From assembly GCF_964204645.1 (NCBI RefSeq), contig NC_134033.1:15626155-15690154 (forward strand): a DNA stretch of 64,000 nucleotides. The letters are read 5' to 3'. The notes below the pieces were generated by a model. It worked only from the letters and a program-made list of their open reading frames with translations. It was not told the origin of the DNA and made no database searches. Below are positions 36,917 to 63,871 of the stretch, one piece after another. Source of the DNA: Tubulanus polymorphus. Taxonomy: Eukaryota > Nemertea > Palaeonemertea > Tubulaniformes > Tubulanidae. How positions within the stretch are numbered: position 1 is the stretch's first letter; every line of letters begins with the position of its first letter. A program made the translations under genes and the position numbers.

Positions 36917-39711
36917 TCAATCCCTTTTATAGAAGGTCCAAGTTGAATTAAATTCGATGTGGGCCTTCAGGTACTGGTAACCATAGAGGCGACACCGTCC
37001 CTCTCGGTCCGAGTAGTTAACTGCGTAGCACACCGGTAGGTAGCGCTGCATGCATGCCGAAATACACCGGATATTCGGTCTCAATTGCAGTTCAACATCC
37101 GGCGCGTCTGGGAGATAAGCGTTTTTCTGTTTTACTACTCTGTATTTACGATGACCTGAAAAAAAGAGAAAACAGTTTGAAGCAATACACTTTTCAGAAG
37201 GGGTCAGCATGGCAGGGGTTCCAGGGAACATGGCCCTGTGAGGCCCGTAGCGTTAGCGGATTCGTTGTGAATTTGGTCGGGGGCATTTATGTTCAATGAA
37301 AAAGTATAAAGCCCACCTCCGTACTGTAATATAGGCCTATATACATGTAGTTAAGTTCGCAATAGCCAGTTTACCTTTCAGCGTGGATATATCTACCGAC
37401 AGAACGGCTTCAATACCGAAACAGCGCCGGATCTTTGTGTAATAGTAATTGAATTCGTAAATTCCGTTAATCGTGATATTAGCATCGGGCAGAGGACCTA
37501 CTGATTTGATCGAGTAAGGACATGCGCTGTTTGTGGCTCCTTCGTTTTTCAAAAAATCGTTGCTACATTGCAGCGTTTTCGACGTTTTCGAAACCGAATC
37601 GCAATGAGTCCCGATCAAATCTCCGGTTTTTACCGATATCCGCTGATCGGACGGGATGTTGAAAGTAGTCTGTCCGGCCGGGCCGTTCGACAGTCGATTT
37701 TTACCGATTAGCTTGAAATAATGACCGCCCTGATAGCGCCACACAGCGGCGAAAGTTTGAGGTGTCGTGTGGACGCTCTCCTCATCAGGACGGTTGAATT
37801 TCCAAGCGACGATTGTCCCGTCGCACGTGATCGGGTTTTCAAATTGTACAACGGTCGTGCACTGGTAACCACGATCCAGAACAGTCATCCCATCGTGGTT
37901 TCTCACTGTCAATGTGCAAAATTGTTCAGCATCACCTGAAAAAAACAATAGGCCTACAAAGTATGAAAGATCAAATTTTTATTGTGGTCTCAGCCTGTTG
38001 CCAGTAACTTATATTCGCGATTTCTTCACGCCGAAGCCTTCAGCTTAGCCCACATCTGACTGCGAGCCTTAGGAAAACGAATGGAAAACCCCCAAACAGT
38101 AGCCCAATTGAATTCCGGCTCCGGTTCATCACACTATACACTCGTTCCCAGATGATCCACAAAAATGACCTTGATCTTGCAATCTTGTCATCGTAAAGGA
38201 CACCCCGCGAAAATGTTGCAAAATGAGAGATTAGTCTCACAATGGAATTACATTCGATAACATTCCGTATATATTAAAGATATTAAAAATCAACGTTTCG
38301 CCTGTTTCGAACAGCGTCCGTCAGTCATCTCCATTACCCCTGGCGGAAGTGACGTCAACCCATTAAATCCCACCAATTATTCAAATTCTAACCCCCACTT
38401 CCGGTCGCCATCTTGAATGACGTCACTTCCGATCGCCATATTTGAGACGCCGCTTCCAGCCAGCGTCAAAATGACGCAATTGAGAGAAAGCCCAACGATA
38501 GAATTCTCTTCGATTTATTAAGAAAAGACACCGATTTGGCTGTTCATCTTATTGATCTTGCATCGATCTGTAATTGGCACATTAAAAATGTATAGTTTTT
38601 TGGACTTACTCTGGTATATCAAAAGTCACAGTTGGAAAAACATATGAAAACGAACGATTTTCGACGACTGTTAAAAGCTTCCACACATTTTTTTGCGCAT
38701 GGGTGTAATTCAAAACTGGATGTAAGTATTCAGGAGTTACCCTGAACGGGCGTATAGTTCGCCAGCAGTGAATTTCGGCATCGATTTTACGCGTAAAAGT
38801 ACTTGGCAGCCACTCCGACCCATTACGCAGGCAGAAACTCTACCTCCATTCTAGGTTTTTTTGGCTCCCACTTGAAGTCCGTCCCTACGTGATACAGATA
38901 CGCGGAAAACGGTGCAAAAATCATTGTATACATAATTATTTTCGATTTACAAAAACTCGTGTGATGAAATATTCAAGAGCCCGTTCTGTTGCTTCTTAAT
39001 TGGTTTAATTTATTTACGAAGCTACGAGTTTCGTACGGCGGTTTTGAACTGGAAACCGAGTCACTCTTGTTCATAAATCATTCCTATATATGAGAGTTTA
39101 TGCGGAAAAATTATACAACGGCCTTCGCATAAATTATAAATGACTTACACGGGAATTTTTTCAACGGTTTTCATCGAGTCCTCAATCGAATCGAGATCTT
39201 TTCGTAAATTATTGACGAAGCACTCTGAGGTGAAATTGGTACGAAATGCCACAAAGTTTCAAAGTTTATTTGCACCATATTTTACAAAGAAAATTGAGCA
39301 CAGATAATTCGGTCAATAGATATACATTAGAAGGTGGCCAAACGATGGCAAAAACCAGAAATAATTTCGCAGGAGTTTTTTGGAAGTACATTGACTTACA
39401 TAGATCTAATACAATTTAACTTTTAAGAAATACTCATGAATCGATACTGGAATCAGGGCCTATAGCTGTGAAACTGGATCCAGAACTGCAAAAGTGGACC
39501 CAGAATTGGGTTCTGATAAATTGAATTGGTGAATTGTATATCTAAAGGTAACAACGAGGGCCCTAATGATCTCTAGACGCAGGAAAAATCAACACAAACA
39601 AAAACGATACACCCGCTTATCCTTACCTTGTGGTCGAACAACTCTAATCAGCAAAATAATCCACACCAATAGATGGCGTTTCGGTGACCGACACAAAATG
39701 CTATAAAACAT
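36917..39711 (-). CDS. Secreted or type II anchored protein with novel Cys-containing domain and PAN/apple-like module, copy A
   Basis: Three exons on the minus strand, 39711-39627, 37935-37375 and 37155-36917, all joined in phase 1, give 294 aa. Residues 1-28 (MFYSILCRSPKRHLLVWIIL and what follows) form a basic stretch plus a short hydrophobic segment: a signal peptide or type II anchor. Residues 29-215, from one exon, form a domain with seven cysteines (C34, C54, C66, C140, C152, C167, C200) and motifs ITCDGTIVAWKF, FAAVWRYQG, KLIGKNRLSNG and VKTGDLIGTHCDS. It looks like a beta-sandwich, but I do not recognise the family. Residues 216-294, also from one exon, resemble a PAN/apple module (C246, C250, C258, C270; CYAVNYSDREGRCRLYGYQY), a fold used for protein or carbohydrate binding outside cells. 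NIT at 181 is a glycosylation site. Paralogues B and C share the exact exon lengths. Confidence 0.85.
38325..38480 (-). promoter_or_regulatory. Intron 1 CRE/ETS-like motif cluster, copy A
   Basis: Contains two perfect TGACGTCA sites (near 38349 and 38420), each beside GGAAGT or ACTTCCG (ETS-like core). Related clusters sit at the same place in copies B and C. It may be an enhancer or a repeat rich in these words; sequence alone does not decide. Confidence 0.4.
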
Positions 39712-40824
39712 TGTTAAACACAGCTTTCTTCACACAGAACTTCAGTACAAAAATGTAGACCTTTTAAGCGTGAAATATCGTTGTTCAACAACTTTAAATT
39801 CATTTAAAATATCCGAACAGTAGCTCAGCCCACCGTTTTAATGAAATAATGCGCTTAATGAGCGACTACTTTTGTCTCTTAGGCTACTGAGTCCAGCGTT
39901 CGTTGATTGTTCATCAAACCGCGGACTACAAAACGAAGGGACGCGAATCGGACGCGGCGTGCGATCAGAGGATCCGCCTGTCGACGCGTATTGGCTACGC
40001 TCAGATCGGAGACCCGAGTGTTGCAGATTTTAGCCAAATAGGTAGTCGACGCGCCACATTTGAAAATGTGCACAGACGTCACGCATAATAAATCAACGGA
40101 AAAAACACTTTACCTAATTTTATCATGTATATTTCTACGTAATTCTATCAAATAAAGTAATTTTTCTTCAGAGTTTTCCAAATTAAGCACATATCTTCGA
40201 AACACGCCGACCACTCAGCATCTGCTATGAATTTCGCAAACAGATATTCGCTCTCGAGTTTGGACGACTTTTTGAATGATCGTTTGATTTGGTAGACCAA
40301 TCCTACGACAGTAGTTGAGCCGTATGCAATAAAGCACGAAATGAGATTATATAACGTTATGACATCGTTTTAAATTCCATGATCAAAAACTGTCGTCCAT
40401 TTTTATCGGCATCGCTTCGTATCGTAATGAGAAAATGAGGCCCCATTAAATTGTTGGCAATTGATTCGGAATCGAATAAATAGAACCGGATGTCACTGAG
40501 CAGTCATTGAATCTAAACGATGCTATTTCGCTGCCGTTTCGTCGATTACAGAACGTTCAGCGACAGGTTCATCAGGTACATTTTTTTATTGCCAATAGGA
40601 TCCCTTAAAGCGTCTGATGTTACCTCAGAGTTCGGTATTCTAGGATCGTAGAGCGTCGTGGGGCGATGTGTGTGTACTATCACTAATGAAATGATAAGCG
40701 CTCTGATCAGCCTTCTATCTACTGGTTTCCTGGAGTATATCTAGGCTCTGTATCGATAATCATCGGTCTATTGGTATTATATTATATAAATATTACATAT
40801 TATGTAAACAACACCCCCTACCGA
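39712..40824. other. 5' flank of PAN copy A up to the 3' end of PAN copy B
   Basis: Apart from the SLC22 exon relic, no gene is seen. 40385-40670 is homologous to 43550-43745, the 5' flank of PAN copy B (shared AGAGTTCGGTAT and CTAGGATCGTAGAGC). This shows that the 5' flank was copied together with the gene. Confidence 0.6.
40717..40781 (+). pseudogene. Relic of an SLC22 last exon
   Basis: 65 bases match the start of exon 10 in the SLC22 copies (IYWFPGVYLGSVSIIIGLLVLY when read in frame), with only about five or six differences from the intact copies. After 40781 the similarity stops abruptly. The stop of PAN copy B is only about 45 bases further on, and no other SLC22 exon is found to the left. 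It is therefore the remains of a deleted SLC22 gene that lay tail to tail with PAN copy B, as copy S1 still does with PAN copy C. Confidence 0.85.
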
Positions 40825-43340
40825 TCAATCCCTTTTATAGAAGGTCCAAGTTGAATTAAATTCGATGTTTTTCGCCGAGTACTGGTAACCATAGAGACGA
40901 CACCGTCCCTCTCGGTCCGAGTAGTTAGCTGCGTAACACACCGGTAGGTGGCGCTCCATACATGCTGATATACATCGGATATCCGGTCTCAATTGCAGTT
41001 CAACGAACGGCGCGTCTGGTAGATAAGTGCTCTCCTGTTTCACTACGCTGTATTTACGATGACCTGAAAAAATAGAGAAAATGCAGTTTCATAAAGCGAT
41101 ATATACATTTTTTTGAGGGGCGTGATAAGGGTCCGAAACATGGCCTTTTAAGGTTCGGGCCCGATGATTATTAATACAGTTCGACAGGGGAGTATCCAGG
41201 AGTAGACTTTGACCGAAGCACAAAGCAGCATAGGGCATACAGTTGAAACCGGCGAACAAAGTATCCACAGTCAAAACAAGGTCTGGATAATCTAGAAATT
41301 CTTGAGCGCGATTATATACAAATTCTAGGCACTTAAGCGACATTGAAGAGGATTTATGCAGCTCAAAAGTTTAATGCGAAATTGCCCAGAAAGGTATTTC
41401 GAAAAGGGCAGGAGAGAATTGCGACGAGATCACGTGCTTCTTGTGCTTTCCTCTGGTCTGACTTTTCAGCTGGAAACCAGCTCACTGAAATAGTGCGAAG
41501 CCCATCATAAAACTATGTTATCCGCAGTAAGAGTTTACCTTTCAGCGTGGGAATATCTACCGACAGAACGGCTTCAATACCGAAACAGCGCTGGATCCTT
41601 GTGTAATAGTAATTCAATTTGTAAATTCCGTTAATCGTGATATTAGCATCGATCAGAGGATCGACTGATTTGATCGAGTAAGGACATGCGCTGTTTGTGA
41701 TACCTCCGTTTTTCAAAAAATTGTCGCTACATTGCAGCGTTTTCGACGTTTTCGAAACCGAATCGCAATGAGTCCCGATTAAATCTCCTGATTTTACCGG
41801 TATCTGCTGCTCGACCGGGATGTTGAAAGTTGTCTGTCCGGCCGAGCCGTTTGACAGACGATTTTTACCGATCAATTTGAAATCATTAGCGCCCTGATAG
41901 CGCCACACAGCGGCAAAAGTTTGAGGTGTCGTGTGGACGCTCTCCTCATCAATACGGTTGAATTTCCAAGCGACGATTGTCCCGTCACACGTGATCGGAT
42001 TTTCAAATTGTACAACGGTCGTGCACTGGTAACCACGATCCAGAACAGTCATCCCATCGTGGTTTCTCACTGTCAATGTGCAAAATTGTTCAGCATCACC
42101 TGAAAAAAAAATAACATAAAGTTGAAAGATCGTGGACCTGCGTACCTCTCGTAGCCAGTAATTTCCATTCGAGATTTTTTCATGTCAAGAGACCCTAAGT
42201 CTAACGAGGGTTCTAAGCCTAGGAAAACTGATTGAGAAAACTGATTGCCCCAAAACAGTAGCCATTTTGAAATCCCTGTCGGATCTTGCAGTTCATGGCA
42301 GGACAGACTCGATCCCAGATGATTTCGTAGACGCCCAATATAATGGTGGTAAATTAGTCTCACAATCGCATTTCATTCGATAGAATTCTGTAGATATTAA
42401 AAAGAAACCACAACGTTTCGACTGTTGACGTCAAACAGCGTTCGTCTCCAGTGCCCCTGGCGGAAGTGATGTCAACACGTTATATATATCCCACCAATGA
42501 TTTAAGATTTAGCCGTCACTATATGCCTATTAAAGGAAACTCGATGTAACCGTTCAAGCCACTTCCGGTCACCATTTTTGATGACGGCATTGATGACGTG
42601 ACTTCCAGTCATCATCTTGGGTGACGTTATTTCCGGTGACGCCACTTCCTGTTACTCGCTCACTCACTCAAACCCTCCAGGAATGGGATACCCTAACTAC
42701 TCCTAATAGTTATATTCAGTAATTATACACACATCGGAATATTTCGATTCTGTTGGGAAAAACATCAAATCCCATCTTCAGAAAAAATTTGGTGTCAATC
42801 TGATATAGTAATCCCACACTACATATAAAAAGAGCCCGTAATTATAGATATCCCCATAATTCTTAAGGGAGGTCGGATTTCTCTTTAAAATGGCAAAATC
42901 CACACCAGATTTTTCCACATATTGTCGACAATGAAAATAAAATAACTGCTTAAAATCCCAGGCTAGATATTGATGAACGAAGTTTGGAGTAGACTTTGAA
43001 TCCATGATCAAGTGAAAAAAGTATTTTCCATAATCGCAAAAGGATTCTTAATATGAAAATTTAACTGAAAACTGTAACCGGATCCAAAACTGCAGAAGTG
43101 GACCGATAACTGTGGAACTGGGTCCAGTGTGGAACTGGGTTCTGAAGAGTTGAATGGGTGAATTGTATATCTAAAGGTAAAAACGAAGCCTCTAATGATC
43201 TCAAGACGCGGGTAAAATCAACATTAACAAAAACGATACACCCGCTTATCCTTACCTTGAGGCCTAGCAACTCTTATCAGTAAAATAATCCACACCAATA
43301 GATGGCGTTTCGGTAACCGACGCAAAATGCTATAAAACAT
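40825..43340 (-). CDS. Secreted or type II anchored protein with novel Cys-containing domain and PAN/apple-like module, copy B
   Basis: Three exons on the minus strand, 43340-43256, 42099-41539 and 41063-40825, with lengths 85, 561 and 239 nt, identical to copies A and C; 294 aa. The leader reads MFYSILRRLPKRHLLVWIIL. The middle domain keeps ITCDGTIVAWKF, FAAVWRYQGA and GDLIGTHCDSVSKTSK. The C-terminal module keeps its four cysteines (CISACMERHLPVCYAANYSD). Substitutions are scattered and conservative and there are no stops, so the copy looks functional. It is flanked on its 3' side by the SLC22 relic and, beyond its 5' end, by SLC22 copy S1 in divergent orientation, 1.4 kb away across a minisatellite. 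The function is not known; an extracellular binding role is inferred from the PAN-like module only. Confidence 0.85.
42420..42665 (-). promoter_or_regulatory. Intron 1 CRE/ETS-like motif cluster, copy B
   Basis: Contains one perfect TGACGTCA (near 42427) and several decayed ones (GTGATGTCAAC, TTGATGACGTGACT, GGGTGACGTTATTTCC) among ACTTCCGG and CGGAAGT words. It is homologous in place and wording to the clusters in copies A and C. Confidence 0.35.
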
Positions 43341-44771
43341 TGTTAAACACAGTTTTCACTCTGGTTAAATCGTAGCGAATGTCAGTACATGAACGTGGAC
43401 GCTCAATAATGCTCCTAACAACTTCATTCATTAAAAATTTCCTAACAATAACAGCCTGTCGCCTTATACAATATGCGCTTAACGCCAATAAGTGAGCTTT
43501 TGTCTGTGCGGCTTCTGAGTCCATAGCGTTCGTCGATTATTCATCAAACTGCCGCCCATCTCTATCGGTATCGTTTCGTGTCATAATGAGATCATTAATT
43601 GGAATCGGAAGCCACTGAGAAATCATTGAAATTCGTCACTTACTGAACGTTAAGACGAAGGTTCATCGGGTGCGTTTTTGTACTGCCGCTCTGAAGTTAC
43701 CGCAGAGTTCGGTATCCTAGGATCGTAGAGCATCGTGGCATTGTCCTGACTGAAAGAGTCGCCTCTTACCCTCTAGGAGAAAACGTTTCATACCCATTCA
43801 TTCAGATTCATACCCATAAAGGGGACACCATCCAGACAGGAGGAGGATGGGTAGGAGACACTGTCCAGATTTAGGAAAGTGGTGCTTTGCGCATTAAGAG
43901 ACACCATCCAGTGTGGTAGAGTGGTCTCCTTCCCATTAGGAGAAACCGTCCAGACTGGAAGGGTGATCTCCTTCCCATTAGGAGACACCATCCAGACTGG
44001 GAGAGTGGTCTTCTACCCATTAGGAGACACCGTCCAGACTTGGAAAGTGGTCTCCTTCCCATTAGGAGATACCGTCCAGACTGGGAGAGTGACCTCCGAC
44101 CGATTAATGGGCACCGGCCAGACTGGGAGAGTGACCTCCGACCGATTAATGGGCACCGGCCAGTCTGGGAGAGTGATCTCCGACTCATTAGGAGACACCG
44201 TCCAGACCGGGAGATTGATCTCCGACTCATTAGGAGACACCGTCCAGACTGGGAGAGTGATCTCCGACTCATTAGGAGACACAGTCCAGAATGGGAGAGT
44301 GATCTCCGACCGATTAATGGGCACCGGCCAGACTGGGAGAGTGACCTCCGACCGATTAATGGGCACCGGCCAGACTGGGAGAGTGATCTTCGACCCATTA
44401 GGAGACACCGTCCAGACTGGGAGAGTGATCTCCGACTCATTATGAGATACCGTCCAGACTGGGAGATTGGTCTCCTACACATTCCAAAAATGTGACAAAA
44501 TAATCATTCACTTTTGAGTCCCTCCAGAGGTGTTGCAAGGTTTTAGAGTTTTGATGTGAACAAATATTCAAATGTAAAATGTATTATACAAAGCGAGTAT
44601 TGATTGATGTGCGTTTTAGGCTAATTACATATGAATATGTATATATGAATTAAAACGAATCTGTCTGTCAGGGTTAATTTTCACCCCATTAAACAATAAA
44701 CATTTCATACATGTACACATCAGGCGCGTGATCGTATTAGAGACGACACCTTTAGAATTCATCATTGAACA
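43341..44771. other. Divergent intergenic region between PAN copy B and SLC22 S1
   Basis: Head-to-head spacer of 1.43 kb. 43550-43745 is the duplicated 5' flank also seen near PAN copy A. 43800-44478 is a 42-bp minisatellite. Any shared promoter must lie at the two ends; I see no clear TATA box. Confidence 0.6.
43800..44478. repeat. 42-bp minisatellite, about 16 copies of two unit types
   Basis: Units of 42 bp centre on CCAGACTGGGAGAGTGATCT. One type has CATTAGGAGACACCGT, the other GATTAATGGGCACCGG. The types occur in blocks (pairs of the second type twice, near 44090-44180 and 44300-44390), showing block duplication. As 42 is a multiple of three, several frames on both strands stay open for up to 203 codons; these are not genes. 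Confidence 0.92.
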
Positions 44772-47700
44772 ATGACGACTCACAAGCTCGCGGATGCCGA
44801 AGGTACCGTAATTTATATCTCCGAAGTGGACAACGTTTTGAAAGCCGTATCGATTTTCGGTAAACGATGGTTGTACATGACTTACGTGATGTTGTTAGTT
44901 TCTTCTTCCCTCATGTCAGCCTGGCACATGTTCGCAATCGTGTTTATAGGTAAGTCTGTTCACTAGAGGGCATCCCCCTTCAGGTACAGCTCTTACGGCT
45001 CGGGCATGTCCTCCTCAAATATGTGTAAATTTTCAATTAACATGTAGTAATCAAAAAAACTTTCTGTAGCCATAATAAGATGAAAACCCACTATCTACAG
45101 ATTAAAAGAATTTAAAAACAAGAATTTATTTATTCAATCTAAAATATATATATAAGACACGACGTTTCGATCTCACCCTAGAGATCATCGTCAGGTGTGT
45201 CAATTCTTTTCTATATCCATGTTCACATATTTGAGAAAATAAATTCATTCATTCACTTTTGACCTCGACACAAATAATTCAGCTTCAAAAGCATTGATTA
45301 AGAGGACTTAGAAATGCATATCGTGTAGATGTATTATGATCGTTTGGATAGGATATTATTTTTCTGTAGTTAGATTAAGGTTAGAAGTTTTTGAAAATTT
45401 GTTTAAAGTTTTGCCGAAAAATACTGCAATAAATGCTCATGAAATTGAAAATAATATCAACAATTATTCAAATTCTGATGAAATTATGATTTGGGATTTT
45501 ATGAATTTTCTTGTATATACATATTTCGCAAATGAATTCCAACGTATCGTCGCAACAGGTGGACTGCCCGATGACTATCACTGTCGAGTGGGCGCCAATC
45601 AATCGATACCTCAGATTTATAAAGATGGTAAATGGACGAATGATAAATGTCGTATGTACAAGAATGAATCTAGTGGTGATAATCAGACGATACCGTGTAA
45701 TAATGGATGGGTTTATTATACCGATTACCAAAGCACCATCGTTACTGAGGTAATTAACATAATAACAATATTTTAACCCATTTTTTAATTCCCGTTATCC
45801 CTATACAATCTGTCACCATAAGGACCACGCGTTAAACTTATTTGAACAATTCAAGAATGATATCTTGATCAAATAGATTAATTGACGAAAAATTTGCCAT
45901 TGATTTCATCGTTTATATGGAGTTTGACCGTTGTGTCCAGTGACTAGAATCCACTCAATGTTGCATCATAGCTTACAATGGATATATCCAAAGTTTGATT
46001 ATAACGGATACTGCCAAACAAGTTGCATGTAGCCGTTGCATGCGTCAATATATCACCAAAACTGGATTAAGAAGCAACATTTTTTCACAATTTTTGATAC
46101 ATGTTTCTAGAATTTACTTCTGACTTTCTGATTGCAGTGGGATCTGGTCTGTGACAAGGACTATTTACCTCAATTAGCGCAGACTATTTTCGTCGTCGGT
46201 ACTTTGATCGGAGCCGGAAGTCTGTCGCCGTTAGCTGATTGGTTGGGGCGTAAAACGGTCCACATCGGTTCGCAGATTGGAATCGCAGTTTTTGGAATTG
46301 TAGTGATATTTTCACCTAATTACACAATGTTTGCCGTGATGAGATTTCTATCCGGAATTTGTCAACAGGTTTGAAATCTAAGATTTTAAAACCCATTATA
46401 TTCAAATTTCAATCGATATCATCGAAGCTATGCGTTCGACCAATCAAAACCCATTATATTCAAATTTCAATCGATATCATCGAAGCAAGAAAGGTATCAC
46501 TGCCTCTCTTGGTTTCCCAATCATCCAGCCATATTGCGTCTAACTATTAAACCTTGTCTGTAATCAAATACTATCTATATTGCATATGTACATGGCGAAT
46601 GATTATTATCACTATGGAAAGCGTCGATATTTAGTATGATTTTGTAGCTGATTTCATTGCAGGGAATCATATTGTCTGGATCAGTCATGATTTTTGAATT
46701 GTTCCATTCAAAAACTAGAGACGTCCTCAGTCTCGCGTTCACGGTCGCCTGGTCACTAACGCTCGTGTTGCTGGCTGCGTTCGCCTTCTTAGTTCGAGAT
46801 TGGAAGCATTTACAACTGCTGATTTCGATCCCGGGATTGTTAGCAATTTTCGGTATTTTTTGTTTTACCGAATCGATACCGTGGCTGATTGGCCGAGGAC
46901 GAATCGTCGAGGCCGAACAGATTCTACGGAAAGTCACGAAAGGTCCCGAAATCAAACTGTCGGTTCCGGGTGGCGAATGCTTCGAAGTTGAGGACGCAGT
47001 ATCGAATAGTAGAGGAGTAAAGGGCTGGAAAACTGAAATAACAAAACGGATGAAAACTTTGAAACGAAAATATCGCGAATCAAGACGGAATTCTCACGTA
47101 GTACGTAACTTCAATTGTGAAAACCCTAAAATAAGAATCGAAGATCGAAATATCTACGTCTTGGTTATTTTCGAAAAAATGACTTCAGTAATGATAGTTT
47201 ATTTTCATGTATGTTAAATTCATAGAGAATTCAGTAATTTTCAGGCGCCGCAGACTGATGAAAAGCGCGAAACCTTATTGGACGTGATGAAACATCCTCG
47301 TTTACGATGGTATTCATTAATTATGTGTCTAATGTGGTAAGTTCATCTAACGCCATTAACAAGAAAACTGGAAAGTTTATTGACGTCTCAGAGAAGAATA
47401 ACGCGTATTCATTACCTAATATTACCGACAATATGATATAATATCATGGATCAATAAATTAACTATGAATTTCAATATATCGACTATTGAATTGAATTGA
47501 CTAGCCTCAATATCGATGACGTAGTGCACATTCACGCAAAATTCATCGTGAGAAAACACGAAATTTCATTACATAGAATTAAGAGTCACGACATTTTTTT
47601 TAAAAACAGAATGAACGCCAAAATTCACAATCATAATCGAAACGCCAATATTGATGACGTAGTGCACATCGACTCAAAGAGAACCCTCTTGAATAGGGCA

Positions 47701-49880
47701 TACTAGCTCAAATGAATTTTTTATACTAGGCATATACACATAATTCTAACGGTTATGGCCAGTGTAAAAAGCGATACACGTCAGGCCAAAATTTATTCCA
47801 AAATCCTATATATGTTGAAGATAAGAAATCGAAGTTAAGCTGATTTCGGAATCGGCTGAAACGGCGAACGATTAGCTCCAAAATTGTACAAAAATGGTTT
47901 ATTCTATTTGATTCTGGTATTAGATGTTAAGTATTCTTTTGTGAAGTAAATGAGCCACTGAGAGCGAGGTATTGCATCAGCTAGTGAAACAACAGAAAAA
48001 CTATGAATTATACTAAGAATAGTAAATACGAGGTAACTATATAGTAAACAGGTGGTTGCGTCATCCACTCAGTTTACTTTATAAAGGGGATATTTTAGCG
48101 TTTTGGATGAACATCTGATACGGGGTTTAGCGAAGGTGGCATAAGCATATCTATAGAAGAAATATAGAAATTCGATACTTCCCCCTCAGTAGGTTCGAGA
48201 CACGACTTAAGATTCGGAATTTGTAAGCCGAAACATTGAGTTAGAAATGAACAAGATCGTAAGTTTACATCATTGGTCATAGTCGTCGATTCATCTGGCA
48301 AGATTACTTCTCTACCCGTAGCGCAGATTTGGCTCGACCACGACCGGACCCGGTCGTTTTCTAAATTTTAGTCTGCATAGAATAATGGCGGATAACCCGA
48401 TTGCAGCACAACAAGAAATTGTTTCTTTCTTACACGAAAACAATCAAATCCCACCTCGTATGCGTACATTGTCGGGTCTCTATCTTTAACAGGCTGAATT
48501 CATCGATTGCTTATTACGGAATTACTTTGAGCGCCACGTCTCTAGTCGGAAACAGATATCTGAATTTCGGTTTGGTCGCGCTCGCCGAAGCTCCGAATTT
48601 CATCTACACAAGCATCGCGTCGACGAAGTAAGATTTCTAGAAAATATAGATTTCTTCACAATCAAATTAAGAAAATAAGGCATGAATTTATTTATCGTTC
48701 CTCTTGTTTTTCTGTAGAATTGGTCGTCGTATTTCGTCATCTATTGTTCAAGTTGCTGGAGGAATTGCACTCATTATTGTACCTTTCATACCAAAAACTC
48801 TCTGTAGGTCAAATCTTGATAAGTGCATAGTCTAAAGAAATACAAAATTTTACTTAGAGTTTAGAAGTGTTTTACGTCCCAACTGCTAGTTAAACTAGTC
48901 ATAAGAGACGGCCAGGACTTTTCTTCTAGGTTGTTATGACTCACAACCTGAGTGAGTTAGCAGAGCTTAGTCCATGTGTGTGTCTCGACAGCCAACGCCA
49001 GAGGTGGATTCGAACTAGGGACCTCTCGGTTCCCAGTCCTCCACTCAACCAACTGAGCTAACTGCACAGGACAAAGATTTAGAACATAGTGTCATAGAGT
49101 TCAAAGCCATCTTGAGAATTCCATATTTCAAGCTAAAAAACGAACCATTTTCATGATTTCAATGGGAAATGCGAAAAAATCTGTGACCAAATATTTCGTA
49201 CCTGAAATCGATTCTTTTCGCGACCTGTTTTTCGACGTCATAGTATTTTTTCAGCAGACGGATCGAGTTTGGCGCCGTTAATCCTCACTGTTACAATGAT
49301 CGGAGTGTTTTTCATGTCATCCTCATTTGGTCTTGTATTTCTGTACGGCCAGGAAATCTATCCGACAAGTACCAGGTAAACTGAGGAACAAACTGATTCG
49401 CCCGATGGCGCCTCAAATATACGCGCGTAGCACGATTCGATGATGATTTCCTTTGAATCTGTTTTCCAGAAATAGTGGTATGGGTTTGTCCTCTGTGTGT
49501 GCTAGAATTGGAGGAATGTTGGCGCCGTTTGCGGGATATATGGTATGTAATATTTGCAAGACAAGTAATTTGAATTATTGAAAAACAAGTATTTTGTTAC
49601 TGGTTACTTTATTAGGCTTTTATTGCTGTTGTAGATGGCAAAGATTTACTGGTTTCCGGGAGTATTTCTAGGCTCTATATCTATAATCATCGGTCTACTG
49701 GTATTATACCTTCCTGAACCGCTTGGACGTCCAATACCGCAGAAAATCGCCGACATGGATTCCTGGACGCGTCAACGATATCGACCGCCAACAGACGACA
49801 ACATGGCCGACGAGCAACTTCCGGCGTTACTGGAAGTACATGAACAAGAAGAAGATGGTCGAAATAACTTCGTTATTTAG
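44772..49880 (+). CDS. SLC22-family transporter (organic ion transporter, MFS), copy S1
   Basis: Ten exons: 44772-44949, 45559-45749, 46138-46368, 46663-47100, 47245-47336, 48493-48627, 48718-48803, 49255-49375, 49470-49542 and 49635-49880. Phases all agree; 596 aa. Exon 1 gives the SLC22 N-terminus (DNVLKAVSIFGKRWLYMTYV and TM1 up to FIG). Exon 2 is the extracellular loop, with three N-glycosylation sites (N73, N95, N101) and cysteines at 68, 90 and 106. Exon 3 starts WDLVCD and has the MFS motif PLADWLGRK at about 154-162. Exon 4 holds TM5-6, ESIPWLIGRGR (270-280; usually ESPRWL in SLC22) and a long basic cytosolic loop. The last exons give GSSLAPLILT, EIYPTSTRNSGMGLSSVCAR and YLPEPLGRPIP. 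SLC22 proteins move organic cations, anions or zwitterions across the plasma membrane; the substrate cannot be read from sequence. Confidence 0.93.
45155..45210. repeat. Fragment of a dispersed repeat (CGACGTTTCGATCTCACC)
   Basis: CGACGTTTCGATCTCACCCT followed by AGAGATCATCGTCAGGTGTG. Similar 'acgtttcg' words start the intron 1 clusters of the PAN genes (38292 and 42412). Intronic in SLC22 S1. Confidence 0.4.
48880..49070 (-). repeat. tRNA-derived SINE (minus strand) in SLC22 S1 intron 7
   Basis: The minus strand has a tRNA-like A-box TAGCTCAGTTGG (49060-49049) and B-box GTTCGAATCC (49015-49006) with correct spacing. The acceptor arms do not pair, so it is not a working tRNA gene. The downstream part to about 48880 is probably the SINE body. 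Confidence 0.65.
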
Positions 49881-50150
49881 TTCAGTATTCTTATCTTTAT
49901 TCTAAAACCGATTTTTGATTTACACCTTTTAACTCAATTTATCTTATATTAAATTTATGACACCGTATAAACGTATATGCATACTGATAGAATATCTGGT
50001 TGTTTTATATATTTCTTTCACTGATTGACGGTGAATATCAGCACTTGCAGCCTGTTACACTTATCCCGCTAGATGGCGGATGTATCAATGCGACAAAGAT
50101 AAATATCAAAATATATTTTGGATTAACGTAAGTAACGCGCCCCCTATTGA

Positions 50151-52285: not shown

Positions 52286-53047
52286 TGTTAAACACAGTTT
52301 ACTGTCGGCAGACGAAATCGTTATGATTTTCACTTACATAAACGGCGACATTTTAACCGATTATTCTCCATTAACTTTATTCATTAAAATCCCCTAACAA
52401 TAGCAGCCTGTCGCATTCATACAATATGCGCTTAACGCCAATAAATGAGCTTTTGTCAAGCGCTCCTGGATTATTCGTCAAAATGCCGCTGATGTTGATT
52501 GGTATCGCTTATAGTTTCGCGATGAGAAAGTTAATTGACTCACAGTCGAGTAAATATAATCAGAAGCCTCTGAGCAATCATTGAAACCAATCGACGCCGT
52601 TTCGTTCCGTATGAAAGCGTCTCATAGAAATTGAGAAATTGTCGATAGATTTCAATTGAATCCGAAAGAAATCCGGCTCCGTTGACGATTGATTTTCAAT
52701 GAAGCATGGGTCGTTCAAGGATTTGTTATCGTTTCGTGCCCGGTGAAATGATGCCATTACAAAAAACGGTGATCCGATTCCGAAACATTTCAATCACATG
52801 AACGTACGAGTTACGCGTTGCATGAAATGCTTTTAGCGCGCTAATGAATCTAAACATGCAGATTAAATGTATTTAATGCGTTGAAGAGTGTTTCGTAACA
52901 AATGTATTCATCATTAGCATAACAACGTCATGCCTTTGTCAGCTAAGCTGGTTTTTATTTTCATCCTATTCAAATTAGATTATACTCTAAAATGTTATAT
53001 CCAGATGTGCGATCGCATAGTATAGACACCTTTCGTCGAATTCAGTT
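52286..53047. promoter_or_regulatory. Head-to-head spacer between PAN copy C and SLC22 S2, with conserved SLC22 5' block
   Basis: 763 bases separate two divergent start codons. The right 136 bases (52912-53047: CATTAGCATAACAAC, CCTTTGTCAGCT, TTTCATCCTATT, TTAGATTATA, GTTATATCCAGA) are conserved before S3 (57782-57901) and S4 (63576-63693). This marks it as the proximal promoter and 5' UTR of the transporter genes. No canonical TATA box is certain. Confidence 0.5.
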
Positions 53048-56000
53048 ATGGCGACTGACGGGTCCTCGGTTGGTGAAGGTACCGTTATTTATATCTCCGA
53101 GGTTGATAATGTTTTGAAAGCCGTATCGATGTACGGTAAACGATGGGTGTACACGACTTGTGCGATGTTGTCGGTTTCTACCTCAGTGACAGCTTGGCAT
53201 GTATTCGCAATCGTGTTTATTGGTAAGTTTATTCACCAAGGCCGCGGCATTTTATATCTAAATTGAGGATAGGAATGAAATTGAATATATCATCTAGACC
53301 GGACAGATTTTGTTTGCAATTGTTATTATTTTCGAATTTGCAAATGAATTACAACGTATCGTCGCAACAGGTGGACTTCCCGATGACTATCACTGTCGAG
53401 TGGGCGCCAATCAATCGATACCTCAGATTTATAAAGATGGTAAATGGACGAATGATAAATGTCGTATGTACAAGAATGAATCTAGTGGTGATAATCAGAC
53501 GATACCGTGTAATAATGGATGGGTTTATTATACCGATTATCAAAGCACCATCGTAACTGAGGTAGTGTAAACATTATCAGCGACCAGCAATCTCTCTTGC
53601 GCTTGGAATCTACAAATGCTTATTCTGTTGATTAGTTGAAGAAATATCACCAAATATTTATGTCCCACTAGATTTGCAGTGACCCGCAAAATGTCCATTT
53701 CTTTGCTTGGTTGGGAAACCTTTTGACACCACTGTACTAGTCTGGTCCGCTCGTTAAGACCCCGTTTCAATAATTCAACGGCTACTTGCAACTGGTTGAG
53801 CAATAGCCATTATTAAACCTTATTAAATCTTCTGTAGGCTGTTGCCTCGTTGAGTGCGGTCACTATATGGACGTCCTCGCTTGCCAGGGTTTTATTGCCT
53901 CCAGATCCTGGCAAGCGATGAAGCTATAGGTCAACTTCCACTGAACGCAGATGCAAACCTAATTTCAAATCCGAAGAAACGAATGAAATTATAGCTGTAT
54001 TTTTCTAGACGTTGAATGTTTCTGCTTGCAGTGGGATCTGGTGTGTGACAGGGACTATTTACCTCAAATGGCGCAGACTATTTTTGTCGTCGGTACTTTG
54101 GTCGGAGCCGGAAGTCTGTCGCCGTTAGCTGATTGGTTTGGACGCAAAGCGGTCCACATCGCTTCGCAGATAGGAATCGCAGTTTTTGGAATTGTAGTGA
54201 TATTCTCACCTAATTACACAGTATTTGCCGTGATGAGATTTCTATCCGGAATTTGTCAACAGGTTTGAATTGAATTCATGAATTATTGGATCCAGTTTAA
54301 CAGTTCTATGTGAAAATTTGACTCCTTGAGACAAAATATGAAGCTGTGTTATTTGTGTTCAATAATGGGCCATCAAAATTCCATCTGATAAACGATTCTT
54401 TCCTCTATTTGATAATGATTATATCTATTCCAGGGTATCGCACTGACCGGAAATGTTATGACTTTCGAATTGTTCGATAAAAATGTTAGATACCTATTCA
54501 TTCTTGCGTTAACGGTCGCCTGGTCATTAATGGTCGCGTCGCTCGCCGCGTTCGCCTTCTTAGTTCGAGATTGGAAGCATTTACAACTGCTGATCTCGAT
54601 TCCGGGATTATTAGCAATTTTCGGTATTTGTTGTCTTACCGAATCGATACCGTGGCTGATCGGCCGAGGTCGAATCGTCGAGGCCGAAGAGATTCTACGC
54701 AAAGTAACGAAAGGTCCCGAGATCAAACTGTCGGTTCGGGATTGCGGATTTCAGGAAGAAGTGACATCGAATATAAGAAGAGAAAAGACTTTGAAAACCG
54801 AAATAACGAAACGGATGAAAACTTTGAAACTAAAATGCTGCAAACCAAAACGGAAGTCTCACACAGTACGTAATTTTGTCTATCCAAATTCACACTTACG
54901 TGTCCCGTGTTGGTCACAAATTGAAGACGTTTCAGAACTAAAATTTTGAACATTTCATTGAAGCCTAGATGTAAACTAGCATCATTCCCGTTGATATAAA
55001 ATATCTTAGATGGATTTGATTATGCGTAGCAAATTCCTATAGATACCTATAGTCAACATACCTAGATTATATAATTGAGTTGAAGATATCTTTTTGTAGC
55101 GTGCGCCCCCTGCTGGCAGTGTGGATAAAAAGCGCGAAACTTTGTGGGACCAGTTGAAACATCCTCGTTTACGTTGGTATTCAATAATCATGTGTCTAAT
55201 GTGGTAAGTCCCTAGAACTCTTGCCGCTTTTAAGCTCCGCAGTGACCAAAGCTGCTCAGTGGGATAAGGCAAGATGTCGTTACATCGTGCCGAAAGACAA
55301 TCGGGTTCGAGTCCTGTTGGCTGCGTACATTGTGTCAACTTCAAAAGGAGTTGGTCCCGTCGTTAATCTAAATGAACAATCCTGTTTAGTTTCTGGAAAT
55401 GAAGATCCAAACGTTGTGAAATTGTTATTTTGGAAGATTATCTTGAACAGGTTGAATTCATCGATTGCTTATTACGGAATTACTTTGAGCGCCACGTCTC
55501 TAGTCGGAAACAGATATCTGAATTTCGGTTTGGTCGCGCTCGCCGAAGCTCCGACTTTCATCTACACAAGCATCGCGTCGACAAAGTAAGATTCCTAGAA
55601 AGTATGGATTTCTCTAAAATTGAATTGAATAAATACGCCATGAATTCTTTTATCCTTCATCTTATTTTCTTGTAGAATTGGTCGTCGTATTGCGTCATCT
55701 TTTGCCCAGGTCGCTGCAGGAATTGCGCTCATTACAGTGGTTTTCATTCCAAAATCATTGTGTAAGATTATATTTAACTCATTGACTAATTGAGCTTTAA
55801 GCTTTTATATTGTTCATAGTGCTCGGAATTGAAAATGGTCTAAAAAAATCATATAAACGGTTAAGTGGATTTTCAAATATTTTTTGATAGTGTCTCTGTT
55901 AACTCGACTGCGTTGTACATAGCCTGAGTGTCGGAAAGGAAAACATGGTCAATCGCTTCAGAAATTGCTAATTTTAATCCACTGCAGAACCGTTAAACAA

Positions 56001-56971
56001 CCTACTTTCGAGGTTCAGTTGTATGATACATGTATATAGTGCAAGTATATCATGTTTCGTAGCATAACTATAGGAACTCGAAACATCACAGTGAGATTTC
56101 ACAACACGGATTCTATTCTGGATACAGGGAGCAAACATCGAAAACGTCGTTAGGCCATTTTTCGATTGTGACGCCACTTTTAGAGGAACAAGCTAAAAAC
56201 AAGGATGTTTTATGGTTTCATAATAATACCGTCCCAACTTTCGAAAAAAAGATATTTTATTTAAGATACTTCTTCGTCCTAAGTTGATAATGATTTCATT
56301 TGAGATTTTTGACGAATGTTTTATACAAATCATCGAATATTTCTTTACACAAACAACGCTAAGAATATAGTTTTCTTTTTCATTGAAGCCAATGGAACGA
56401 GTTTAGCACCGTTAATCCTCACTTTAACAATGGTGGGGATGTATTTAATATCGTGTTCGTTTTCATTGGCATATCTGTACGGCAAGGAAATCTATCCGAC
56501 CAGTACCAGGTAAAACAATGCCAACTTCTTCAACCGTTAATGAATGTGTTTGGTGATTCGTTTTCCTTTTTTTTAGAAATAGTGGAATGGGTTTGTCTTC
56601 CGTTTGTGCTAGAGTTGGAGGAATGTTGGCGCCGTTTGCAGGATATATGGTCTGTAATATTGAAGAACAAGCCTTTGTCACTGATTGAGTTCAATTCGTT
56701 TATTAGGCTTTTATTGCTGTTGTAGGTAACTAAGATTTACTGGTTTCCGGGAGTATTTCTAGGCTCTATATCTATAATCATCGGTCTACTGGTATTATAC
56801 CTTCCTGAACCGCTTGGACGTCCAATACCGCAGAAAATCGCGGACATGGATTCCTGGACGCGTCAACGATATCGACCGCCAACAGACGACAACATGGCCG
56901 ACGAGCAACTTCCGGCGTTATTGAAAGAACGTGAACAAGAGGAAGATGGTCGAAATAACTCCGTTGTTTAG
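53048..56971 (+). CDS. SLC22-family transporter, copy S2
   Basis: Ten exons: 53048-53222, 53371-53561, 54032-54262, 54434-54865, 55100-55203, 55451-55585, 55676-55761, 56389-56509, 56577-56649 and 56726-56971, giving 597 aa with the same phases as S1. The N-terminus is MATDGSSVGEGTVIYISEVD. Exon 2 codes for the same loop as S1, with three glycosylation sites; exon 3 has PLADWFGRK; exon 4 has ESIPWLIGRGR. Exon 5 begins RAPPAGSVDKK, so its acceptor lies four codons earlier than in S1. Exon 9 ends before GTCTGT, a usable but non-consensus donor shared with S3. There are no internal stops, so it is likely functional. Past the exon 4 donor the frame stays open for 27 codons, conserved with S3. It is closer to S3 than to S1 in introns and flanks. 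Confidence 0.93.
53863..53930. repeat. Hairpin element CCTCGCTTGCCAGG in SLC22 S2 intron 2
   Basis: CTATATGGACGTCCTCGCTT and GCCAGG pair with CCTGGCAAGCGATGAAGCTATAG around ATTGCCTCCAGA. The same element is in S3 intron 2 (58506-58572). Single arms occur at 33776-33793 and 63368-63384. Confidence 0.7.
55245..55320 (+). repeat. tRNA-derived SINE-like sequence in SLC22 S2 intron 5
   Basis: A tRNA-like stretch with A-box-like GCTGCTCAGTGGGATAAGG and B-box GGGTTCGAGTCC (55303-55314). The paralogous position in S3 (59928-60003) carries the same element, while S1 lacks it, so it entered before the S2/S3 split. The terminal arms do not pair as in an active tRNA gene. Confidence 0.55.
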
Positions 56972-57901: not shown

Positions 57902-60900
57902 ATGGCGACTGACGGGTCCTCGGTTGGTGAAGGTACCGTAATTTATATCTCCGAAGTGGACAACGTTTTGAAAGCCGTATCGATTTACGGGAAACGATGG
58001 TTGTACACGACTTACGCGATGTTGTCGGTTTCGACTTGCTCACTGACTGCTTTCCACATGTTCGCAATCGCTTTTATAGGTAAATTTATCCACTAAGGCC
58101 GCGCTATATATAAAAATTAGATTGAGGATAATAATAAAGTTGAATGTATCATCTAGATCGGATAGATTTTATTTGCGAATATTTCTTCCTCGAATTTTGT
58201 AATTCGCAAATGAATTTCAACGTATCGTCGCAACAGGTGGACTTCCCGATGACTATCACTGTCGAGTGGGCGCCAATCAATCGATACCTCAGATTTATAA
58301 AGATGGTAAATGGACGAATGATAAATGTCGTATGTACAAGAATGAATCTAGTGGTGATAATCAGACGATACCGTGTAATAATGGATGGGTTTATTATACC
58401 GATTATGAAAGCACCATCGTTACCGAGGTAGGGACATTATCAGTGATCAGTCTATTGCGTTTGAAATAAACAAATGTACACTTTTCTGCTTCGGCGGGTG
58501 TGATCACTATACGGTCATCCTCGCTTGCCAGTGTTTGATTGCCTCCAAAACCTGGCAAGCGAGGATGCTATAGTTCAACTCCAACAAACTTAGCTGCAAA
58601 ACTTAATTAATTCAAAATCCGAAGAAACGATGAAATTATAGCTCCATTTTTTCAGAAGTTTCTTACTTTCTGCTTGCAGTGGGATCTGGTGTGTGACAGG
58701 GACTATTTACCTCAAATGGCGCAGACTATTTTTTTCGTCGGTACTTTGGTCGGAGCCGGAAGTCTGTCGCCGTTAGCTGATTGGTTGGGACGTAAAACGG
58801 TCCACATCGGCTCACTGATTGGAATCGCAGTTTTTGGAATTGTAGTGATATTTTCACCCAATTATACAATGTTTGCCGTGATGAGATTTCTATCCGGAAT
58901 TTGTCAACAGGTTTGAATTTCATAAATTTCACGATCCAGTTAAACCCAGTTATAGGTTAAGATTTCACCCGACTAGAGCCAAATTGTGGAGCTGGTATCA
59001 TTTCTCCGTGTTTAACTATGGGTCATCTAAGTTCCTTCTGATAAATGATTCCGTTTTCAATTTGATTATGATTATATCTATTCTAGGGTATCGCACTGTC
59101 TGGGAATGTTATGGTTTTTGAAATGTTCCATAAAAAGAATAGATACCTATTCACTCTCGCGTTAACAATCGGCTGGTCATTAATGGTCGTGTTGCTTGCA
59201 GTGTTCGCCTTCTTAGTTCGAGATTGGAAGCATTTACAACTGCTGATCTCGATTCCGGGTTTATTAGCAATTTTCGGTATTTGTTGTCTTACCGAATCGA
59301 TACCGTGGCTGATCGGCCGAGGTCGAATCGTCGAGGCCGAACAGATTTTAAGGAAAGTAACGAAAGGTCCCGAGATCAAACTGTCGGTTCCGGGTGACGG
59401 ATTTCCAGAAGAAGTGACATCGAATATAAGAAGAAAAAAGAGTTTGAAAACTGAAATAACGAAACGGATGAAAACTTTGAGACGAAAATGTTGCGAATCA
59501 AAACGGAATTCTCACTCTGTACGTAATTTTGTCTATCCAAATTCACACTTACGTGTCCCGTGTTGGTCACAAATTAAAGAAGTCTCAGAACTAAAATTTT
59601 GAACATTTCATCGAATCCCAAGCATGCTATGCAACAAGCTAGCACCATTCCCGTTGATATAAAATATTTCAAATAGATTTAATTGTTCGAAGTCTATTCG
59701 TATACGCAGATTACTGTTGTCAACATACGTAGGTTTTAAATTAAGTACGTTGGATGATATCTATTTGCAGCGTGCGCCCCCTGCTGGCAGTGTGGATGAA
59801 AAGCGCGAAACTTTGTGGGACGTAATGAAACATCCTCGTTTACGTTGGTATTCAATAATCATGTGTCTAATGTGGTAAGCAACTAGAAATCTAACCGCTG
59901 TTCAGTTCGGCTGTCATTAAAGGAATGGCCTTTAGTAGCTCGATGGGATAAGGCACGATGTTGTTGCATCGTGCCGAATGACAATTGGGTTCGAGTCCTG
60001 ATGGCTGCTTACAGTTCGCGGACTGCAACGTCTGAAGAAGAAGGCGGTCCCGTCGTTAATCTAAATGAGCAATCCAATAGGAGGGATCGTAACATAAATT
60101 GTTACCTACATTTTGGGAGTCTATCTTCAACAGGTTGAATTCATCGATTGGTTATTACGGAATTACTTTGAGCGCCACGTCTCTAGTCGGAAACAGATAT
60201 CTGAATTTCAGTTTGGTCGTACTCGCCGAAGCTCCGAATTTCATCTATACAAGTACCATGTCGACAAAGTAGGCAGTGATGATTCTGTAAAAAGTAGAAT
60301 TCATTCCGAATCAAAATACAAACTAGTCATAGATTTGTTGATCGCCATTATTTATAGGGCTGGTCGTCGTATTGCTTCGTCTATTGCCCAGGTTGCTGGA
60401 GGAGTTGCGCTCATCATTGTGGCTTTCATACCAAAAACACTTAGTAAGTTTATATTCAACTCGTAAAGTTAATCTGAATGTGAGATGTAGAATAGCCGCG
60501 TTAACCATGCTGTTGGTACGGGTATTGCCTTATAAGTTAAATAGGGTTTTCTGTTGTCTGAAAGTTTAGCCAGGATAATTTTATCTTTGACGGTAGATTA
60601 TGTTTTGATATTTCAAATCGTAATTGATATTTATTTGCCAGGTCATTTTTAGCTAAGAACACATATATCTGTATATGTTTTATTTCAAACGAAATCAAGC
60701 GAACCTGTAGCCTGTCTCCACGTAAACTGCTCTGAAAGTGTTGGATCCTTATCAATCCCTGATTGATCAATCATTAATCTTGTATTTATTCACAAAAAAG
60801 TTAAACTCAAATTTTTGGTGTAATTGCCAATGGTTACTTCATGTTTTCAATGAGGACAACAATTCAAACTTAACCGTTTTAGGCTTAAACTTTTTCGTGA

Positions 60901-61632
60901 AACTGGGCCCTGATGATTATTTTGTGTGAAATTTTTGAGACGTATGTTCTATACAATTTATCGAATATTTATTTATATAAACAACGCGCCAAGTAATTTA
61001 GTTTCTTTTTTATTAAAGCGAATGGAACGAGTTTAGCACCGTTAATCCTCACTTTTACAATGATCGGGGTGTATTTCATAACGTGTTCGTTTTCATTGGG
61101 ACATCTGTACAGCACAGAAATCTATCCGACCAGTACCAGGTAAAACAATGCAAACTTCAAACAAAAATCAACCGTTCATGAAAACCGTTCGGAAAGGTTT
61201 CTTGTTTGGTGATTCGTCTTAAGTTCCTTCTTTCAGAAATAGTGGTTTAGGTTTGTCTTCCGTTTGTGCTAGAGTTGGAGGAATGTTGGCGCCGTTTGCG
61301 GGATATATGGTCTGTAATATTGAAGAACAAGCCTTTGTCACTGATGAATTGAGTTCAATTCGTTTATTAGGCTTTTATTGCTGTTGTAGATGACGAAGAT
61401 CTACTGGTTTCCGGGAGTATTTCTAGGCTCTGTATCTATAATCGTCGGTCTACTGGTATTATACCTTCCTGAACCGCTTGGACGTCCAATACCGCAGAAA
61501 ATCGCCGACATGGATTCCTGGACGCGTCAACGATATCGACCGCCAACAGACAACATGGCCGACGAGCAACTTCCGGCGTTATTGAAAGTACATGAACAAG
61601 AGGATGATGGTCGAAATAACTTCGTTGTTTAG
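57902..61632 (+). CDS. SLC22-family transporter, copy S3
   Basis: Ten exons: 57902-58079, 58237-58427, 58680-58910, 59087-59518, 59771-59874, 60134-60268, 60358-60443, 61019-61139, 61237-61309 and 61390-61632, giving 597 aa. It begins MATDGSSVGEGTVIYISEVD. Exon 2 is identical to S2 except for three bases near its end (one changes Gln to Glu). Exon 3 has PLADWLGRK; exon 8 reads GHLYSTEIYPTSTR where S1 has LYGQEIYPTSTR and S2 LYGKEIYPTSTR. The donor after exon 6 is GTAGGC, weaker than in S1 and S2, and the exon 7 acceptor is shifted in base content (AAGGCTGG rather than AAATTGG). Intron 7 has gained a GGGCCCAGTTTCAC palindromic element absent from S2. Frame and phases are intact, so it is likely functional. 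Confidence 0.92.
58506..58572. repeat. Hairpin element CCTCGCTTGCCAG in SLC22 S3 intron 2
   Basis: ACTATACGGTCATCCTCGCTTGCCAG pairs in part with CCTGGCAAGCGAGGATGCTATAG. Paralogous to the S2 copy at 53863-53930; the stem is better preserved here. Confidence 0.7.
59928..60003 (+). repeat. tRNA-derived SINE-like sequence in SLC22 S3 intron 5
   Basis: TAGCTCGATGGGATAAGGCA (A-box region) and GGGTTCGAGTCC (B-box). Same place and wording as 55245-55320 in S2. Confidence 0.55.
60788..60909. mobile_element. Palindromic GGGCCCAGTTTCAC-family element in SLC22 S3 intron 7
   Basis: Nearly full match to 28340-28470: CACAAAAAAGTTAAACTC, TTGCCAATGGTTACTTCATG, GAGGACAACAATTCAAAC and TTTTTCGTGAAACTGGGCCC. 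The left end lacks the GGGCCCAGTTT. S2 has nothing similar at this place, so it is a recent insertion or a loss in S2. Confidence 0.85.
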
Positions 61633-62030: not shown

Positions 62031-62919
62031 GAGAGACTACGGAGCCCCGTTGGTGACATGGTGAAAAAAAAAATTTCTGCGGGAATGAAATAATCTTTCC
62101 GTTCGAACGAAAAGTTCTTCGTGGGAACGAAAAGTTTTTCGTGGGAACGAAATCTTTTTTTATGGTTGATAATTTCCCCTGGCCTACTGTTCCCATGGAG
62201 TTAGTAACACAGATTATAAAAGAGATCCGAACCATTCGGCAGTCATCGACTGATTCCATGACTACTTAATATCAATTAATCCGTCATCTACGTTACTAAC
62301 CGTCATTGTTGATTATAACAGAATGTTTTCTGGATCCAACATTACGTATCTACTTGTGGATCTATCACGGATTTGGAATTATAGAACTGAGTCTTACATC
62401 TCAATAAAGTATTACCTCACGTGACCATAGCCCTTGACGTTCATGCATTCTGGTCGAAAACTGTAGCATTCCTCCTTGTGAGAATATCGCTCCCCCCAAA
62501 GGGGTATATTTCTGGGCTGGGTTGCAGTCTCAATGAGTCTAGGGGTTGTTATTCTGGGTCAATTTGTAGGGGGTTTATATTGTCTGAGGGGTAATTTTCC
62601 AAAAGGGGTTATTGTCTTTGGAAGGCATTTATAGGGACTATCGTCTGGAGGTAATAAGACCGAGTCGTGAGCGTTAGGTTAGGATTTGGATTAGATTCCA
62701 CAGTGTTCGAATAAAAAAACAATAATTTTCTCTTCACACGTTTTTCGTTTTCAAGGAATAGTTATTTTGTTCCGACGAGAAGATCATTTTGATGCCAACG
62801 AAAAACTGTTCGTTCCGACGAAAAGATTATTTCGTTCCCAGGAAAAATATTTCGTTCGAAAGAAAATCTATATTCATCTTTCAACCGTTCACCTCCGGGG
62901 CTCCTTAAGAGCCATATTG
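62031..62919. repeat. Foldback element with TTCGTTCGAACGAAA-type words, copy 2 (enlarged)
   Basis: Outer ends GAGACTACGGAGCCCCG and CACCTCCGGGGCTCCTTAAG, better matched inverses than in copy 1. The GTTCGAACGAAA words are split by about 560 bases of unrelated sequence (about 62165-62730), which suggests an insertion or a longer parental form. Confidence 0.65.
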
Positions 62920-62947
62920 AATAACGGTAAACGATGCCTTCCCGGCA

Positions 62948-63575: not shown

Positions 63576-63693
63576 CATTAGCATAACAACTGCCTTTGTC
63601 AGCTTGGATTTTTTAAATTTTCATCCTATTTGAATTAGATTATATTCTAATAGGTTATATCCTGACAGTTGACGCCTTTCATCGAGTTCAGTA
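63576..63693 (+). promoter_or_regulatory. Conserved SLC22 5' block before S4
   Basis: CATTAGCATAACAACTGCC, TTTGTCAGCTTGG, TTTTCATCCTATTTGAATTA, GGTTATATCC and CAGTTGACGCC match the blocks before S3 and (less well) S2. It is probably promoter plus 5' UTR. Confidence 0.5.
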
Positions 63694-63871
63694 ATGGCGA
63701 CTGACGGGTCCTCGGTTGGTGAAGGTACCGTAATTTATATCTCCGAAGTGGACAACGTTTTGAAAGCCGTATCGATTTACGGTAAACGATGGTTGTACAT
63801 GACTTACGCGATGTTGTCGGTTTCGACTTGCTCACTGACAGCTTGGCACATGTTCGCAATCGCTTTTATAG
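63694..63871 (+). CDS. SLC22-family transporter, copy S4 (first exon only; cut by window edge)
   Basis: The first exon reads MATDGSSVGEGTVIYISEVD and onward through DNVLKAVSIYGKRWLYMTYA to FIG. It ends at the GTAAAT donor at 63872, in phase 1, exactly as in S3, and is nearly identical to S3 exon 1. The sequence to 64000 is the start of intron 1 and matches S3 intron 1. The remaining nine exons should lie to the right of the window, so whether the gene is intact cannot be judged. Confidence 0.88.

Follow-up and report, generated by a model that had tools for sequence, protein, structure and literature searches.

The genome of the nemertean Tubulanus polymorphus (268 Mb) contains a locus at which genes for a PAN-like protein on the minus strand alternate with SLC22 transporter genes on the plus strand. 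Does this alternation reflect a two-gene cassette that was copied and kept as a unit, or is it a by-product of a growing transporter array? We addressed this question in a stretch of 64,000 nucleotides (C9:15626155-15690154, contig NC_134033.1; hereafter the window) and in the sequence to its right. The reading that we favour, at a probability of about 0.7, is that the PAN-like genes are passengers at the edge of an expanding array of ten SLC22 genes, and that gene conversion acts on exons 2 and 10 of these transporters.

Layout of the array and identity of the transporters

Gene order, strands and coordinates were determined by self-comparison, tblastn exon mapping and splice ends. They bore out the arrangement that the original prediction had read from the letters of the window: from left to right, PAN-A (-), an SLC22 fragment (+), PAN-B (-), S1 (+), PAN-C (-), S2 (+), S3 (+) and S4 (+). 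The three PAN-module genes on the minus strand were likewise as claimed, with intact 294-aa frames, three exons each and GT/AG ends. The claimed SLC22 relic is present in the right place, but it comprises merely 65 bp of exon 10. Positions below are those of the window, and TM stands for transmembrane.

36917..39711, minus strand: PAN-A, 3 coding exons, 294 aa, from tblastn exon mapping and splice ends
39625-39711, 37376-37936 and 36920-37156 plus stop, minus strand: exons of PAN-A
36868-40661: homologous unit of PAN-A
40717..40781, plus strand: SLC22 relic, limited to 65 bp of exon 10, with 90-94% identity to array exon 10
40825..43340, minus strand: PAN-B, 3 exons, 294 aa; homologous unit 40802-43738
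43892..44483, no strand: 42-bp minisatellite, 14 copies, occupying much of the PAN-B/S1 head-to-head interval
44772..49880, plus strand: S1, complete SLC22 gene, 10 exons
45534..45749, plus strand: S1 exon 2 (predicted TM1-TM2 extracellular loop), homogenised tract
49635..49877, plus strand: S1 exon 10 (predicted last TM segment and C tail), homogenised tract
50151..52285, minus strand: PAN-C, 3 exons, 294 aa; homologous unit 50096-52610
52839..53047, plus strand: S2 5' flank
53048..56971, plus strand: S2, complete SLC22 gene, 10 exons
53346..53561, plus strand: S2 exon 2, homogenised tract
56726..56968, plus strand: S2 exon 10, homogenised tract
57902..61632, plus strand: S3, complete SLC22 gene, 10 exons, 607-aa model
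58212..58427, plus strand: S3 exon 2, homogenised tract
61390..61629, plus strand: S3 exon 10, homogenised tract
63694..64000, plus strand: S4 exon 1, the only S4 exon inside the window; S4 runs on to C9:15692995

The original prediction had proposed looking to the right of the window for continued alternation. There the array extends for a further ~37 kb to S10, which reaches C9:~15727560, without another PAN gene. The SLC22 genes thus total ten (S1-S10), falling into two subgroups, S1-S5 and S6-S10, compared with three PAN copies, all of which lie at one edge of the array. A search of the 268-Mb genome turned up no close PAN copies other than PAN-A, PAN-B and PAN-C.

By sequence comparison, the array genes are SLC22 (organic ion) transporters. 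When the S3 model was searched against PDB with phmmer, the top 26 sequences were all SLC22 members (7e-60 to 6e-19), and the first match outside the family was GlcP at 1.5e-8. The best PDB relatives were OCTN2, OAT1, OCT3 and URAT1, with the first three in the lead. TIGR00898 (cation transport protein) was the best model by far, at 328 bits and E 1e-97, under its cut-off of 550.75. Because this cut-off was built for the automatic naming of prokaryote proteins at NCBI, we gave the shortfall less weight than the PDB result. Exon 2 encodes the TM1-TM2 extracellular loop, characterised by cysteines, N-x-S/T sites and the end STIVTE-WDLVC, with TM positions taken from alignment to SLC22 structures.

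Homogenised exons in the SLC22 arrays

Across all 45 pairs of the ten genes, the mean proportion of synonymous differences (pS) was 0.069 in exon 2 (216 bp) and 0.083 in exon 10, compared with 0.26-0.57 in the other eight exons. Protein changes in exon 2 were rare (mean nonsynonymous proportion, pN, 0.016), and between the subgroups exon 4 was at or near saturation, with a synonymous divergence (dS) of 2 or more. The disparity was evident even in single pairs taken across the subgroups: of ~40 synonymous sites in exon 2, 2-5 differed, whereas elsewhere the figure was 160-191 of ~300 (Fisher p 4e-7 to 1e-11). The longest identical run in exon 2 was 162-184 nt, and 2,000 codon shuffles yielded none beyond 67. 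In trees, the branch that separates the subgroups measured 0.32 for exons 1 and 3-9 together and 0.76 for exon 4; for exons 2 and 10 it did not exceed about 0.02. Tract edges were abrupt and lay in or at the exon. In several genes the tract began a few codons into exon 2 and ended close to the splice donor; the first few exon-2 residues differed in S6, S7, S9 and S10. Exon 8 was also homogenised within S6-S10, in most pairs tested. Together, these DNA patterns suggest that exons 2 and 10 are apparently kept alike by exon-restricted gene conversion.

Comparing four SLC22 arrays exon by exon (C9, C5, C4 and C1), we found that exon-restricted conversion recurs, with exon 2 hit in two of the four. 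In an unrelated five-gene array at C5:2813278-2831701, pS was 0.06 in exon 2, 0.13 in exon 10 and 0.18-0.39 in the other exons, with edges at exon borders. An SLC22 pair at C4:952501-962500 had no differences over the 165 bp of exon 4b, while pS in its other exons was 0.36-0.60.

Could these exons be alike for reasons other than conversion? Very strong purifying selection on the nucleotides themselves, as in an RNA element, a splicing enhancer or regulatory DNA, would fit both the coincidence of the tracts with exons and the rarity of protein changes. However, synonymous sites are identical too. C5 exon 2 is uniform among the genes of its array although it is only ~40% identical in protein to its C9 counterpart, a divergence that argues against nucleotide constraint across the family. 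Moreover, other arrays homogenise different exons, such as exon 4b in C4. We consider such constraint improbable. Nor does exon 2 behave as a mobile or recently re-inserted exon that spread through the array. Sharp edges and the differing first residues in four genes are what such an exon might leave behind, but S3 exon 2 as DNA occurs in exactly ten genomic places, all of them genes of the C9 array (the matching exons reach C9:15721404), and this confinement indicates that it is not a mobile element. Exon 10 behaves likewise, C5 repeats the pattern with a different sequence, and neither isolated copies nor terminal element features were found, leaving this explanation a very slim chance. Conversion mediated by complementary DNA was set aside, since exons 1 and 3, which flank exon 2, are not equally homogenised.

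Exchange within the array is evident from S4. The left part of this gene is 99.1% identical to S5 and the right part 99.9% identical to S3, with a junction at 64887/64888 (window coordinates extended to the right). This hybrid of an S5-like 5' half and an S3-like 3' half arose by recent unequal crossing-over, a process thereby documented in the array. S4 lacks exon 4; its frame could remain open without this exon, whose borders appear to be phase-0.

Duplication history of the PAN-SLC22 pairs

Read by eye, the proteins of PAN-A, PAN-B and PAN-C have a hydrophobic, signal-like stretch at the start of exon 1 and show no obvious membrane segment besides it; the product is thus likely to be secreted. 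The genes resemble those for secreted PAN/apple-domain proteins in their C-terminal exon (exon 3), which has four invariant cysteines and a weak match to Pfam PAN_1. They differ in that this match, 15.8 bits for the exon alone and 14.0 bits for the whole protein, lies below the gathering cut-off of 21.4, and in that the main domain, the 187 aa of exon 2, had no significant match in Pfam or PDB. AlphaFold models of the PAN exon and the exon-2 domain (predicted local distance difference test, pLDDT, 44 and 29) were too poor for use.

That tandem duplication took place at this locus is certain. The original prediction went further, proposing that a two-gene cassette was duplicated with shared flanks, followed by copies of the transporter alone. 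The position and orientation of the relic do fit a PAN(-) SLC22(+) unit, but the divergence clock and the flanks do not. Among the PAN genes dS was 0.14-0.19, and about half of intron 1 remained alignable at ~80% identity. S1 and S2, in turn, differed by a dS of 0.30 outside exons 2 and 10 and of 0.39-0.54 in exons 1, 5, 7, 8 and 9; for the most part, their introns could no longer be aligned. Because PAN-B and PAN-C show a dS of 0.14 versus 0.30 for S1 and S2, a single cassette duplication does not fit.

The flanks are indeed shared, although only within each family separately, PAN with PAN and SLC22 with SLC22. The PAN 5' flanks resemble one another up to 40661, 43738 and 52610, and those of S2-S5 are homologous from 52839, 57704, 63500 and C9:15694866. 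The 5' flank of S1 had no match to those of S2-S5, and the two head-to-head pairs, PAN-B/S1 and PAN-C/S2, had no common promoter block on the SLC22 side. The tail-to-tail junctions are also unlike: S1 retains ~180 bp of 3' flank before PAN-C, whereas the relic breaks off inside exon 10, some 20 bp ahead of the PAN-B unit.

To account for this history, we propose that the left edge of an expanding SLC22 tandem array lay next to an unrelated gene whose product is a small secreted protein. Through unequal recombination at this edge, the PAN neighbour would have been copied together with SLC22 genes or between them, producing the interleaving, and later duplications inside the array would have copied transporters alone. 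The PAN-like genes would most likely be passengers rather than obligatory partners. Recurrent short-tract conversion between loci may act where homology persists, in the exons, and halt where introns have diverged; exons 2 and 10 would be held alike in this way, and the other exons, exon 4 foremost, would be free to diverge.

The alternative is that a PAN(-) SLC22(+) cassette was duplicated whole and then retained for a functional reason, either cooperation between the secreted PAN protein and the transporter or a promoter common to both. Of the three PAN units, two have an intact SLC22 gene head to head and the third has a fragment in the expected place and orientation, and only 763 bp separate the start codons of PAN-C and S2. 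Set against this are the greater apparent age of S1/S2 than of PAN-B/PAN-C, the restriction of largely alignable introns to the PAN genes, and the 5' flank of S2, which is unrelated to that of S1 but common to the PAN-less S3-S5. The relic alone is weak evidence, given that a second SLC22 exon-10 scrap of 61 bp lies at C9:15746958-15747018 (-), ~19 kb to the right of the array, with no PAN gene nearby. Furthermore, a PAN gene is missing at the head of eight of the ten SLC22 genes.

Nor was the linkage found elsewhere beyond chance in a genome survey that used individual proteins as queries, among them a consensus of the PAN-gene module assembled by hand. The module matched at least 29 places in at least 18 clusters, cluster counts being lower bounds. 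Among at least 17 module clusters and at least 33 SLC22 clusters outside the focal locus, one pair lay within 20 kb, where 0.10 pairs were expected (P about 0.10); the three PAN-SLC22 adjacencies at the locus share one local history and were counted once. The functional or regulatory link suggested by the original prediction is thus unsupported, as most SLC22 genes have no PAN partner at their head and neither genome-wide linkage nor a common promoter block was found. We consider the functional cassette unlikely.

Among the module relatives, a gene at C5:2848198-2848952 (-) has a signal-like and PAN-like N-terminal part and lies 19 kb from the five-gene SLC22 array. We did not take this co-location as evidence of linkage, as the distance is within chance and the PAN-like part seems to flank the module on the opposite side. 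Close to this gene is an exon that, judged by eye, is thrombospondin-C-like.

Several observations nevertheless weigh against passengers combined with conversion. Some joint duplication of PAN and SLC22 genes is likely, because the SLC22 scrap between PAN-A and PAN-B sits where a cassette predicts it, and the start codons of PAN-C and S2 are near enough for a shared promoter. Conversion among the PAN genes themselves may have lowered their apparent age relative to that of the SLC22 genes, blurring the dates. A young triple of SLC22 genes in C1 shows no homogenisation of exon 2, indicating that the effect is not universal. Finally, the comparisons involve paralogs of a single genome and leave conversion, as opposed to constraint on synonymous sites, likely but unproven.

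Comparison systems and neighbouring features

In kind, the locus is ordinary, combining a tandem array, hitch-hiking and concerted evolution; its exon-restricted homogenisation is unusually clean and is replicated. It resembles the vertebrate OCT/OAT/OCTN tandem clusters in its head-to-tail SLC22 genes, with the large TM1-TM2 loop and the STIVTEWDLVC motif. It differs from them in having ten genes in one array, two exons homogenised array-wide and, at one edge, interleaving with a foreign gene for a secreted protein. A mosaic of high and low divergence made by conversion is also known from the GOT1 paralogs of Tigriopus californicus (PMC3728101), although these are a pair of metabolic enzymes rather than a ten-gene transporter array. 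TLR1 and TLR6 are likewise tandem paralogs with one region kept alike by conversion and other domains diverging, a pattern credited by the authors of that study to co-evolution with shared binding partners (PMC2077338). That case involves two genes, a 300-aa tract and a comparison of orthologs; ours involves ten genes, single-exon tracts and paralogs only. Neither gene conversion in SLC22 arrays nor a PAN-SLC22 pair turned up in a literature search that covered few subscription papers.

According to a passage of PMC7959823 that cites Keller 2011 and Brast 2012, vertebrate OCTs require the cysteines of the TM1-TM2 loop to form oligomers and to insert into the membrane. By analogy with this role, as given in that passage, and with the TLR1/TLR6 precedent, selection for a common loop is plausible: the loop may be an assembly or trafficking interface that stays common while the transport core diversifies. 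It is quite unlikely, in our judgement, that conversion selectively preserves a shared loop time and again across whole arrays, letting functionally diverged transporters form mixed oligomers or be recognised by a common partner, a role that the secreted PAN-like protein could fill. If selection for a common oligomerisation loop does operate, mixed SLC22 oligomers are implied, which is directly testable. Two independent arrays in one genome would offer a clear example from nature of conversion acting on a single surface loop in a transporter family whose transport core diversifies. The interleaving, for its part, suggests that edge effects in an array that is gaining genes can produce adjacency and repeated orientation, which may then pass for a functional cassette.

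Other features were noted in the window. The left neighbour of PAN-A is a rhodopsin-family G-protein-coupled receptor gene with an uninterrupted 353-codon frame (34873-35934, minus strand; 7tm_1 E 1.8e-10). Arrays of a palindromic unit (TTTCGTTCGAACGAAA-like) occupy 57216-57515 between S2 and S3 and 62762-62866 between S3 and S4. A 39-bp minisatellite at 9414-10269 has a 156-bp higher-order period and frames open on both strands. A 122-bp dispersed repeat occurs at 28349-28470 and 60789-60910 with 94% identity, one copy lying within intron 7 of S3.

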